DNA of 64,000 nt from Xanthomonas cassavae CFBP 4642 (GTDB lineage: Bacteria; Pseudomonadota; Gammaproteobacteria; Xanthomonadales; Xanthomonadaceae): contig NZ_CM002139.1 of assembly GCF_000454545.1 (NCBI RefSeq), positions 2,243,441 to 2,307,440 on the forward strand, in the 5' to 3' direction. This document shows positions 42,017 to 48,968 of the stretch, one piece after another. Every line of letters starts with the position of its first letter. Positions within the stretch are counted from its first letter, which is position 1. The position numbers and the translations under genes were made by a program. The notes under the pieces are model-generated. The model searched no databases, was not told where the DNA came from, and was given only the letters and a program-made list of their open reading frames with translations.

Positions 42017-42733
42017 ATGACAAGCTCCCCTGTAAAAGTGTTGATCCACGGCGCCTCCGGGCGGATGGGCAAGGCCTTGCTGCGCCTGTCGGCCGAAGAC
42101 GAGGCCTTGCAGGTCGTCGGTGCGGTGGTGGGGCGCTCGCCTGCGCAGCGGGTGGTGGACGGCGTGCCGTTCTTCGCCGCCAGCGAGCTGGGCGGCGCGC
42201 CGGCCTTCGATGTGGCGGTCGATTTCAGTTTGCCGCAGGGCTTTGCGCCGATCCTGGCGTTGTGCGCGCAGCGCGGCAGACCGCTGGTGTCCGGCACCAC
42301 CGGGCTGGACGAGGCGCAGCGGTCGGCATTGCTGCAGGCGGCACAACAGATTCCGCTGGTGTGGGCGTCCAACTTCAGCCTGGGCGTGGCGGTGCTCACC
42401 GAGCTTGTCGAGCGCGCCGCCGGTACCTTGCCGGGCTGGGATTGCGACATCGTCGAAGCGCATCACGTCCACAAGCAGGACGCGCCGTCGGGGACTGCCC
42501 TGACCCTGGGTGAAGCCGCCACCGGCAGCGGTGCGCAGCCGCGTTTTGCCAGCCTGCGTGCCGGCGATATCGTCGGCGAGCATACGGTGCAGTTCACCGG
42601 GCTGGGCGAGCGGCTGGAGCTGGTGCATCGGGCCACCAACCGCGACATTTTCGCGCGTGGTGCGTTGCATGCTGCCAAGCGCCTGATCGGCCGGCCTGCC
42701 GGCAGTTACCGGGTGCGCGACCTGGTGTTGTAG
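42017..42733 (+). CDS. dapB: 4-hydroxy-tetrahydrodipicolinate reductase
   Basis: Enzyme of lysine and diaminopimelate synthesis, 238 residues. The nucleotide-binding motif is VLIHGASGRMG (about 8-18) and the active-site signature EAHHVHKQDAPSGTAL (about 146-161). It is shorter than E. coli DapB (273). Lies upstream of carA, as in many gammaproteobacteria, but with a strong hairpin between them. Confidence 0.95.
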   Translation: MTSSPVKVLIHGASGRMGKALLRLSAEDEALQVVGAVVGRSPAQRVVDGVPFFAASELGGAPAFDVAVDFSLPQGFAPILALCAQRGRPLVSGTTGLDEAQRSALLQAAQQIPLVWASNFSLGVAVLTELVERAAGTLPGWDCDIVEAHHVHKQDAPSGTALTLGEAATGSGAQPRFASLRAGDIVGEHTVQFTGLGERLELVHRATNRDIFARGALHAAKRLIGRPAGSYRVRDLVL

Positions 42734-42737
42734 CGCC

Positions 42738-42771
42738 GCGCAACCGCGTGTGAACGCACGCGCGGTTGCGC
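42738..42771 (+). terminator. strong hairpin behind dapB
   Basis: GCGCAACCGCG (42738-42748) and CGCGGTTGCGC (42761-42771) are perfect 11-base arms around a 12-base loop, 5 bases after the dapB stop. No T-run follows, so it may be a weak terminator or a stability element. Confidence 0.6.
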
Positions 42772-42967
42772 TGCGTATGCATGCGGGTGCGCCGCCGGGC
42801 ATGCTCGTCTCGCTTGTCAGGCTGGCAAGCCGGAGCACTTGCCATTACAATTCTCGCTTGCCCGAACCAGCGTCGGACCGGTCCTCAGCACCGCGTCCGC
42901 GCTTTGCTGCAACCGGAATTTGGCCGGAAGCGCATCGGAGTCCCAGGCAGCCAGAGCGAGACCCCAC

Positions 42968-44095
42968 GTGACCCAACCCGCAATCCTTGTCCTCGAAGAC
43001 GGTACCGTGTTCGAGGGCGAATCCGTAGGCGCCAACGGGCTTTCCGTCGGCGAAGTGGTGTTCAACACCGCCATGACCGGTTACCAGGAAGTCCTGACCG
43101 ACCCCTCCTACGCCCGCCAGATGGTCACGCTGACCTATCCGCACATCGGTAACACCGGTTTTACCGATCAGGACGATGAGGCCCGCAAGATCTGGGCCGC
43201 CGGCCTGATCGTGCGCGATGTGCCGCGCCGTCCCAGCAGCTGGCGCAGCCAGGTGGCCTTGCCGGAATGGCTGCAGGCGCGCGGCGTGGTGGCCATTTCC
43301 GGCATCGATACCCGCAAGCTGACCCGTCTGCTGCGCGAAAAGGGCGCCCAGAACGGCGCGCTGATGGCCGGCGAGATCGACGTCGACACCGCACTGGACG
43401 CCGCGCGCAAGTTCCCCGGCCTGAAGGGCATGGACCTGGCCAAGGTGGTCTCGACCGAGACCAGCTACACCTGGCAGGAAGGCCAGCTGGACTTGGACGC
43501 CAATGCGTTCGTGCGCGCCGAGCTCAAGTACCGCGTGGTGGCGTACGACTACGGCGTGAAGCTCAACATCCTGCGCATGCTCGCCGAGCGCGGTTGCGAC
43601 GTCACCGTGGTGCCGGCACAGACCCCGGTGGCCGAAGTGCTGGCGATGAATCCGGATGGCGTGTTCCTGTCCAACGGCCCGGGCGACCCGGAACCCTGCG
43701 ACTACGCCATCGCCGCGATCAAGGAGCTGGTGGCGAAGAAGGTGCCGACTTTCGGCATCTGCCTGGGCCATCAGCTGCTGGCGCTGGCTGCCGGTGCGAA
43801 GACGCTGAAGATGACCACCGGCCACCACGGCGCGAATCACCCGGTGCAGGACCTGGACGGCGGCCGGGTGATGATCACCTCGCAGAACCACGGCTTTGCG
43901 GTAGACGAACGCACGCTGCCAGCCAATGTGCGCGTCACCCACCGTTCGCTGTTCGATGGCACCAACCAGGGCATCGCGCTGACCGACGCGCCGGCCTTTT
44001 CGTTCCAGGGCCACCCGGAAGCTTCGCCGGGGCCGCGCGATGTGGGGCCGTTGTTCGATCGGTTTGTGGCGTTGATGGCTGAAGTGAAAGCTTGA
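42968..44095 (+). CDS. carA: carbamoyl-phosphate synthase small subunit
   Basis: Glutaminase subunit of 375 residues, supplying ammonia to CarB for pyrimidine and arginine synthesis. N-terminal domain with [14 protein letters not shown]; class I amidotransferase with the nucleophile Cys in [13 protein letters not shown] (about residue 264) and the His/Glu in [14 protein letters not shown] start. In relatives carB follows directly; here a two-gene cassette separates them by about 1.6 kb. Confidence 0.96.
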
Positions 44096-44164
44096 ACCCC
44101 GTCCAGGGCCACATGCTCGCTCTGATGACTGCATGGCATACCGTCGGCCCCAGTGGAGGTCCTA

Positions 44165-45313
44165 ATGCTTGATCGCATCGACATCGAAGGTTTGAAGGGA
44201 GTCGGCAAGGTGGAGCTGCGGTTCGACGCAGCCTGCCGGGCGCGTGTGCTTTTTGGCGTCAATGGCGTTGGCAAAACGAAGTCTTTAGAAGCCATCTATT
44301 GCGTATTGCTTTTTACCAATGAGGAGTTCTTGCGAGTCAAGGGTGATCGGGGAATCAATCCAGACAAGTGCGTGCCCGCGTCCAACGTCCTTATCGATGA
44401 CTCGCGATATCTTATTGATGAGCCTTTGCAAAAGCTCGTGCAGGCAAGAGATGTTGCCTCACATGCTGTTCGTCATTCGCGTCCCTTGGTTTACATCGGT
44501 GCGGGTGGGCGATCGTCGATGGGAAGTCAGCCCACATCCATTGCAGCATTGGGAAATTTTGAGGAACGTAGGTCTCAGCATTTTGAGTTGCTGTTAGATA
44601 AGTGCAGAGAAGGCTCGTTGCGCTCTGCCGGCATGGATGCGGACATCCGCGTGTGGTTCATACAGCGTGCGCAGTCGGTCAACCCTTTTCAGGTTGAAAA
44701 GGACAACCTGCGCAACGAGATCGAGTCGGTATTGAAGCTGTTGCATCGCATCGATCAGCGTGTGGATGCCGAGCGCCTGCAGATCGACGGCTCGCAGCGT
44801 GTTTACCTGAGTGTGGAGGGCCGCATGATTGAGCTGGGTGAACTCAGTTCGGGATTTGCCTCGGTAGTGAAGCTGTTTCAAGCCATCGTCTCCGGGTACG
44901 CAGGCTTCAGTAACTCCAAGGATCTGCAGAACCTGCCAGGCGTGGTGCTGATCGACGAGATCGAAAGTCACCTCCATGTCGGTTGGCAGGTCAGCATCGT
45001 CAGACATTTGAAGGCGCTGTTCCCAAACACGCAGTTCTTCATTAGCACCCACTCGCCGCTGGTACTGACCCAGCTCGAGCAGGGAGAGGCCTATCTCCTG
45101 GAGCGCGACGCGGCAGACGGAGTCGTCAGGTCGTCTGTGATCGACTCGCCCAACATGAAGGCATTCGCGGATGTGCTTGAAGAGACCTTTGGTGTCGATC
45201 TCAATGCACTCAAGCGCGAGGCGCTGGTCAGCGAAGACCAGTCCGCTACCAAACGTGCATTGCTGGACCTGGTCAAGCAGCGCCGCGATCGGCAGGGTGG
45301 GGAGCAAGCATGA
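44165..45313 (+). CDS. AAA/ABC-type ATPase of an ATPase-PIN cassette
   Basis: This protein of 382 residues has Walker A GVNGVGKT (31-38), an ABC-like signature GELSSGF (225-231), Walker B VVLIDEIESHLH (260-271) and the switch His in STHSPLVL (294-301). This is the layout of SMC/OLD-like AAA_15/AAA_21 ATPases used as sensors in anti-phage and toxin-antitoxin modules. TGGAGG lies just before the ATG. Codon use is visibly less GC-biased than in carA and carB, especially in the first half, suggesting transfer. The downstream PIN gene overlaps its stop by 4 bases. A housekeeping role is unlikely; the defence role is inferred from architecture. Confidence 0.85.
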   Translation: MLDRIDIEGLKGVGKVELRFDAACRARVLFGVNGVGKTKSLEAIYCVLLFTNEEFLRVKGDRGINPDKCVPASNVLIDDSRYLIDEPLQKLVQARDVASHAVRHSRPLVYIGAGGRSSMGSQPTSIAALGNFEERRSQHFELLLDKCREGSLRSAGMDADIRVWFIQRAQSVNPFQVEKDNLRNEIESVLKLLHRIDQRVDAERLQIDGSQRVYLSVEGRMIELGELSSGFASVVKLFQAIVSGYAGFSNSKDLQNLPGVVLIDEIESHLHVGWQVSIVRHLKALFPNTQFFISTHSPLVLTQLEQGEAYLLERDAADGVVRSSVIDSPNMKAFADVLEETFGVDLNALKREALVSEDQSATKRALLDLVKQRRDRQGGEQA

Positions 45314-45717
45314 CCCGTCTGGTACTGCTCGATGCCAACCTCTTGATCGGCGCGCTGGATGGGGAGGAGAGCAATGCTGCTCACCAAGCGTCGCTGTCGA
45401 CATTCGAGGCGCTGGTCGCCGATCCGGATGTCAAGATCGCGATCTCCCCGCTGATTCGATACGAAGTGTTGCGCGGTATGGACGAGGCGGATTTCGAGGC
45501 GGTGAACGCCATCCTCAACGACATGAAGGAGTTCGAGGTGCGGGGTCAAGAGGCCATACGTGCCGCGTAAGTCTTCCGGAAGGCTCGCCAGACCAATGTA
45601 AAGCTGGATAAGCGCAGGTTCGACGTGTTCCATTGCGTCTGCGCAGAAATCAATGATCTCGAAATCCTAAGTAAAGATGGGGATATCGCGAAGATTCAAG
45701 AACTCATGAAGGCCTGA
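45310..45717 (+). pseudogene. PIN-domain nuclease, interrupted by an in-frame TAA
   Basis: The frame starts with ATG in the ATPase stop (ATGA). It encodes a PIN domain with Asp8 in LLDANLL and Glu52 in RYEVLRG, then meets TAA at codon 87 (45568-45570). The same frame continues without further stops for 48 codons, containing RFDVFHCVCAE and ILSKDGDI with the remaining acidic residues, and ends at 45717. Total length of 135 codons is normal for a PIN toxin. A single CAA or GAA to TAA change explains the break. The 86-residue product would lack half of the active site. Stop-codon readthrough is possible but nothing supports it. Confidence 0.75.
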
Positions 45718-45725
45718 ATAAGACA

Positions 45726-48964
<3,239 letters not shown>

Positions 48965-48968
<4 letters not shown>

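Follow-up and report, generated by a model that had tools for sequence, protein, structure and literature searches.

The carA–carB interval of X. cassavae

The window analysed here is a stretch of 64,000 nucleotides from Xanthomonas cassavae CFBP 4642 (contig NZ_CM002139.1), in which carA and carB, encoding the two subunits of carbamoyl-phosphate synthase, are separated by 1,630 bp. This interval is occupied by a spacer, an ATPase open reading frame (ORF) and a PIN gene, all on the carAB strand (Table 1). The initial annotation had described an ATPase–PIN nuclease cassette between carA and carB; the ATPase, its motifs and the 4-base overlap (ATGA) between the ATPase stop and the PIN start at 45310 were confirmed, but the PIN gene is not intact, as its frame meets a stop at codon 87. 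The module is nonetheless real. It is conserved and has been exchanged horizontally, and it represents a known kind of sensor-ATPase system in a form armed with a PIN, which is broken in this genome.

The final PIN stop (45715–45717) lies 8 nt upstream of carB. Profile searches covered the two ORFs on the carAB strand, which between them take up the interval; further ORFs overlap them in other frames. The insert has a G+C content of 55.5% (66–71% at third codon positions, GC3) against 65–66% (GC3 85–88%) in carA and carB. No mobility gene was recognised in the insert and no end repeats were found. No promoter-like site was found in the slot, where 0.5 would be expected by chance; with both genes on the carAB strand, it is plausible from this layout that their expression tracks pyrimidine and arginine demand.

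Table 1. Features of the carA–carB region, in window coordinates.
Feature	Coordinates	Strand	Basis and remarks
carA, small subunit of carbamoyl-phosphate synthase	42965..44095	+	Pfam CPSase_sm_chain and GATase; predicted start, ORF open from 42839; conserved left flank
Spacer, 69 bp, carA stop to ATPase ATG	44096..44164	+	GGAGG precedes ATG
PtuA-type ABC/SMC-like ATPase, 382 aa, intact	44165..45313	+	ORF, Pfam, motifs
Walker A GVNGVGKT, residues 31–38	44255..44278	+	Alignment
ABC signature ELSSGFA, residues 226–232	44840..44860	+	Alignment
Walker B VVLIDEIES, residues 260–268	44942..44968	+	Alignment
His switch ISTHSP, residues 293–298	45041..45058	+	Alignment
VapC-like PIN gene, in-frame stop at 45568–45570	45310..45717	+	ORFs, PF01850 and VapC-model matches
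PIN gene part 2, after the stop, 48 residues, holds the last two catalytic acids	45571..45717	+	PF01850 0.082 (weak); conserved positions
carB, large subunit	45726..48968	+	Conserved right flank; last base of the cassette directly precedes the carB ATG

The ATPase matches AAA_21 (1.3e-13) and AAA_15 (1.1e-11) in Pfam, and has an alternative GTG start at 44153 to the ATG at 44165. Core residues of the Walker A (GVNGVGKT), the signature (LSSGF), the Walker B with its DE and the THS switch are invariant in an alignment of 22 rows. Its C-terminal helices (residues 331–379) are predicted with low confidence. Among proteins of described systems, the nearest to this ATPase is PtuA, followed by AriA, which supports the parallel drawn in the initial annotation with the sensor ATPase and small nuclease of Septu and PARIS, here with a PIN effector. 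PADLOC matches of the PIN itself are weak (best 7.7e-4 among five relatives scanned, and 0.0027 for the first piece in the window).

The TAA at 45568–45570 divides the PIN frame into an 86-residue and a 48-residue piece and falls upstream of D105 and D123, two of the four catalytic acids. Matches of the two pieces to PF01850 are weak (0.015 and 0.082, both below the curated cut-off), and the first piece matches the NCBIfam VapC model NF047959 at 2.3e-5, also under its cut-off. The PIN resembles VapC11 by profile, and VapC15 and VapC11 by fold, and the four conserved acids are kept in 98 of 102 family sequences. The stop is known from the assembly of one isolate and may be an assembly error. 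With its PIN broken, the module is very unlikely to work through that protein in this genome.

Conservation and decay of the pair

The ATPase search returned 1,167 relatives (120 listed) and the PIN search 101. For 26 of the 101 PIN clusters, the longest contig is identical in size to that of one of the 120 listed ATPases, whereas offsetting the sizes by 1 to 5 gave 1 to 3 matches. Across these 26 pairs, ATPase and PIN distance matrices were correlated (r 0.641, against a maximum of 0.289 in 2,000 permutations), to which shared host phylogeny may add.

Within Xanthomonas, the pair is present in eight of 35 genomes, that of X. cassavae included. Weak ATPase matches in G006, in G020 and at a second locus of G018 had no PIN and were excluded from this count. 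The initial annotation had proposed looking for ATPase–PIN pairs with an intact PIN in other genomes, and these exist: all seven other Xanthomonas PIN copies are open at the position of the stop in the window, with products of 135 aa in six and 147 aa in one, and the intact PIN of X. cucurbitae matches PF01850 at 6.5e-9. Lesions were nevertheless detected in three of the eight copies, namely the PIN stop in the window, a PIN without D8 in G019, and in G008 (L006/L014, X. axonopodis DSM 3585 contig 137) an ATPase which passes its usual stop and extends to 516 codons beside an open PIN. The remaining five copies are without lesion. Ratios of nonsynonymous to synonymous substitution (dN/dS) were determined for seven Xanthomonas copies, leaving out seven pairs with G004 for which dS was inestimable; in 20 of the 21 pairs they were 0.09–0.20 for the ATPase and 0.10–0.26 for the PIN.

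The PIN stop at codon 87 raises the alternative that the insert is a decaying, inert remnant in this genome, lying in a neutral slot. Other damaged copies point the same way, as in addition to the lesions in G019 and G008 they include a broken gonococcal pair, an ATPase fragment without PIN in G090 and a PIN (P0160) lacking its first part. However, the ATPase is intact here with all its motifs, five of eight Xanthomonas copies are free of lesions, substitution ratios are low, and the explanation concerns this strain rather than the module, hence we consider it improbable.

Exchange of slot contents in Xanthomonas and its family

In all 35 Xanthomonas genomes carA and carB share a contig and strand. 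The gap, counted from where the carA match stops, is 444–488 bp in 26 genomes, 614 bp in one and 1,631–1,662 bp in eight, and these eight are the carriers of the pair. The initial annotation had asked whether the junction is empty elsewhere. The pair is indeed absent from the other 27 genomes, but the gap is filled there by four other contents: a 118-aa ORF (13 genomes), a 147-aa ORF (9), a 134–142-aa ORF (4) and a 183-aa ORF (1). These types were assigned by length and confirmed by blastn, with no cross-match between types at 1e-5. Searches of Pfam with one representative of each type gave DUF6973 for the 147-aa ORF and 23S_rRNA_IVP for the 134–142-aa ORF, with nothing above cut-off for the 118-aa ORF and no match for the 183-aa ORF. 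The terminal codons of carA vary with slot type, and cassettes extend up to the base that directly precedes the carB ATG. Unrelated cassettes thus alternate between carA and carB, and slot contents vary between species.

We compared slot content with a tree built from four genes that flank the slot (5,502 columns, 35 genomes; feoB available for 32 and the aminotransferase for 33). Slot content required 15 parsimony changes on this tree, where at least four would be needed in any case and shuffled labels averaged 18.8, the lowest shuffle giving 13; the carB tree likewise required 15. By segment, the opening 400 nt of carB required 12 changes, one of the nearer carA segments 13, the carA segment closest to the slot 17 and segments farther off 14–17. 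Horizontal gain, which the initial annotation had read from lower-GC codon use, is therefore supported both by the low G+C content of the insert and by a slot history that departs from that of the flanking genes. The same annotation had suggested that placement in an essential operon guards the pair against loss. This was not borne out, as slot content changes often, the PIN is broken here and three of eight copies carry a lesion.

The ATPase DNA of G004 is 61% identical to that of the window, against 87% for recJ, which suggests that G004 acquired its copy in this slot independently, and the pair has probably entered the Xanthomonas carAB operon at least twice. Between the window and G013, dS is 0.50 for the ATPase and 0.26 for recJ. 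Short G+C-rich repeats flank the IVP-type slot gene (G012, G026, G025 and G014, at L084, L102, L107 and L115, respectively; PF05635 for G012) and reach into the end of carA. In G007 (L089) and G006 (L094), carB clusters with G001/G005/G015 while the flanking genes cluster with G028, hence recombination across carB is likely in these genomes.

Across the wider family, 69 genomes were searched with carB and 65 matched; of the 30 loci then read, 27 lie outside Xanthomonas. Among these 27, ten carA–carB gaps measured 7–28 bp, two were 84 and 129 bp, and fifteen held larger inserts. The latter include ORFs which, judged by eye from sequence, resemble the 147-aa, IVP-type and 183-aa genes of Xanthomonas. 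A gene of 634–645 aa was also observed between carA and carB in three genera (L153, L155 and L156, from G046, G462 and G435), the G046 copy matching Peptidase_S9 at 1.8e-49.

The pair and its slots in distant genomes

Beyond Xanthomonas, the pair was observed beside other core genes. In the gonococcal record NZ_CP119142.1 a broken ATPase–PIN pair lies between nuoL and nuoM (L078, 8832–10723). In a second gonococcal strain (NZ_CP119140.1; L159, 16293–17757) the same flanks enclose, in place of the pair, a 387-aa ORF encoding an NgoFVII-like PLD nuclease (RE_NgoFVII, PF09565, 30.5 bits, cut-off 23.8). Both records, although filed as plasmids, are about 2.17 Mb and carry nuo and car genes, hence they are evidently chromosomes rather than plasmids. 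The carA–carB gap of gonococci was reportedly described as variable by Lawson in 1995. Here it spans 3,286 bp (L160, 3757–7042) and holds near carB a phosphoribosyltransferase, which matches PsyrT (1.3e-19) and ShosT (1.8e-7) in PADLOC, along with a 182-aa ORF whose SLOG-type match stays below threshold. These two genes are possibly another toxin–antitoxin-like pair.

In one other order, a search for further loci matched 1 of 399 genomes (G758). There the ATPase and PIN genes overlap by 11 nt and lie 30 nt upstream of purC–purF–purM, with a type IIG restriction enzyme two ORFs away. In G1036 the two genes are adjacent with a 6-nt gap, 492 nt upstream of a miaA-like gene (named by eye), and are not visibly in an operon. 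G090, from a family represented by two genomes, carries the ATPase fragment alone, on the strand opposite to its neighbours, and at the viral-contig locus L080 no PIN match was found beside the ATPase match. Placement inside an operon is thus common, though not the rule everywhere, in this small set of loci.

In 23 of the 101 PIN sequences, the tail would fit an out-of-frame overlap with a gene that opens with MPKR, the start of carB. The same holds for 3 ends of the 120 listed ATPases and for 224 (2.1%) of the 10,837 stretches taken from within sequences. The fitting tails include those of Stenotrophomonas rhizophila and Azoarcus. Such an overlap is visible in the DNA for one of the 23, P0157 (G004, L101), in which the PIN overlaps the start of carB in another frame and stops inside carB. 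The 23 tails are mutually related and hence do not represent 23 events, yet they suggest that the pair may adjoin carB well beyond Xanthomonas.

A tentative generalisation, which we hold to be rather less likely than even, is that core metabolic operons serve as docking slots for toxin–antitoxin and nuclease cassettes that are swapped without a mobility gene, the ATPase–PIN pair being a recurrent tenant (carAB, nuo, before purC–purF–purM). Against it stand the G1036 pair and the G090 fragment, neither of which visibly belongs to an operon; the remaining Xanthomonas cassettes, moreover, are not recognisable as defence genes. If carA–carB and nuoL–nuoM are regular exchange sites, they could be mined directly by comparing the gaps between adjacent core genes across strains. 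Defence systems are mostly sought in the vicinity of other such genes and of mobile elements, and a pair embedded in an operon could escape these searches, since no mobility gene was recognised with it and plasmid and phage matches are few. We consider the carA–carB exchange slot the larger finding, and it merits a study of its own.

Proposed mode of action

We interpret the insert, with a probability of roughly 0.6, as a toxin–antitoxin or abortive-infection module of a PtuA-type ATPase and a VapC-like PIN ribonuclease (RNase), and as one of several interchangeable cassettes of the slot. The ATPase would be both sensor and antitoxin, and the PIN the toxic effector. In intact copies, a dimer or higher oligomer of the ATPase would bind the PIN and hold it inactive, perhaps through the C-terminal helices 331–379 of the low-confidence model. 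A trigger derived from phage or damage would then shift the state of the ATPase and free the PIN, which would cut tRNA or rRNA and halt growth. We infer restraint and release by analogy with AAA-ATPase antitoxins (PMC10440598) and with ptuXYZ (PMC11980606). Cassettes are probably swapped by homologous recombination in the conserved flanks.

The lesions in PIN genes beside an intact ATPase (window and G019) fit a toxin whose loss is tolerated. They also fit a Septu-like direct nuclease, in which the ATPase recruits the PIN into a stable complex that cuts phage nucleic acid and plays no antitoxin role. The closeness of the ATPase to PtuA of Septu and retrons, which has reportedly been solved in complexes with the PtuB nuclease, favours this alternative; the partner here is however not an HNH protein, and its PIN group resembles VapC toxins. 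We therefore regard a direct nuclease as unlikely, though the strongest of the competing explanations, and favour a restrained PIN toxin.

A number of observations weigh against a toxin–antitoxin or defence module. The closest pair of copies, G018 and G019, has dN/dS of 0.91 for the PIN and 0.39 for the ATPase, and the G019 PIN is also the one without D8. The pair is rare: at 1e-20 the ATPase was matched in 4 of 247 genomes of the family, all of them Xanthomonas with no match outside the genus, and in 2 of 369 genomes of the class (X. cassavae itself and one fragment). A single match among 72,556 plasmid records (limits 1e-30 and 1e-25) is the gonococcal chromosome filed there. Of the four matches among 50,697 phage records, two are KS9 records of a single Septu-like ATPase that comes with an HNH gene, and the other two are partial. 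PADLOC searches with one representative of each other slot type left three without a match and gave the 183-aa ORF a weak one to DrmC (9.2e-4), hence on these representatives the slot does not look like a defence island. Finally, with 12–17 changes near the slot and 14–17 farther away, co-transferred flanks are not clearly seen.

Few plasmid and phage matches, together with a position inside the carAB operon and purifying selection on both genes, would also suit a housekeeping or regulatory RNA-processing pair which tunes carAB or translation and has no role in defence. Such a function is difficult to reconcile with the lack of the pair in 27 of the 35 Xanthomonas genomes, whose carA–carB gap is taken up by unrelated genes, or with its placement elsewhere in other genomes (nuo, before purC, near miaA), and we give it little credence. 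The same distribution (8 of 35 Xanthomonas genomes, and in the family Xanthomonas alone) bears on the initial annotation, which a pair shared by all Xanthomonadaceae and following vertical descent would have contradicted; this is not what is seen. An exchangeable module with a PIN toxin is the interpretation we retain.

Comparison with known systems

No paper on an ATPase–PIN pair or on the carA–carB slot was found in the open-licence literature. The insert shares the PtuA-type ATPase of Septu, but the Septu partner is the HNH protein PtuB, whereas profile and fold matches identify the adjacent gene here as a PIN. With 382 aa the ATPase is also shorter than those of KS9 (434), 8ee4 (465) and full-length retron entries (542–552). 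Septu proper was accordingly rejected as a classification and kept as a likeness. Retrons (Ec78/Ec83/Eco7) were rejected, since the interval is filled by the ATPase and PIN with no reverse transcriptase recognised; a search of Rfam at 42700–45800 gave no match up to E 0.1. In PARIS, AriB is reportedly a Toprim nuclease (PMC12409363). The partner here is a PF01850 PIN with a VapC fold, hence PARIS too remains a likeness.

VapBC shares with this family the VapC-type PIN with its four conserved acids, but the place of its VapB-like antitoxin gene is taken here by the ATPase. No small same-strand VapB-like ORF lies between carA and the ATPase, and without VapB the pair was retained only as a likeness of VapBC. 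In the NetFlax D29 group, neutralisation of nuclease toxins by AAA-ATPase antitoxins has been validated, with varied partners of which one is RNase-like (PMC10440598). The available part of that paper names HNH, HEPN, Toprim, RloB and AarT partners, PIN not being named there with D29. The D29 arrangement of an ATPase gene adjoining a nuclease gene is found in the window, the other Xanthomonas copies, G758 and G1036. In ptuXYZ (PMC11980606), a PtuA-like ATPase stands next to a fusion protein that combines a YoeB-like domain with a PIN-like domain devoid of catalytic residues, while a third gene encodes a DUF262 nuclease. We rejected this assignment and kept the likeness, as only two genes lie between carA and carB and the intact PIN is a 135-aa protein with one PIN domain. 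The ATPase–PIN combination would add an effector type to the group of PtuA/AriA sensor ATPases.

With regard to mobility, insertion of an integron or transposon was rejected, as no mobility gene was recognised and there are no end repeats, and the few matches in plasmid and phage records lend little support to carriage by either. The slot resembles the minimal mobile elements of Neisseria, reportedly described by Saunders and Snyder in 2002, in which a fixed pair of conserved genes encloses one of several unrelated cassettes or no cassette; carA–carB shows this pattern. Such elements are likewise said to carry no recognised mobility gene in the insert. They differ in having been described for Neisseria, whereas the slot described here belongs to the Xanthomonadaceae and lies within a single operon.
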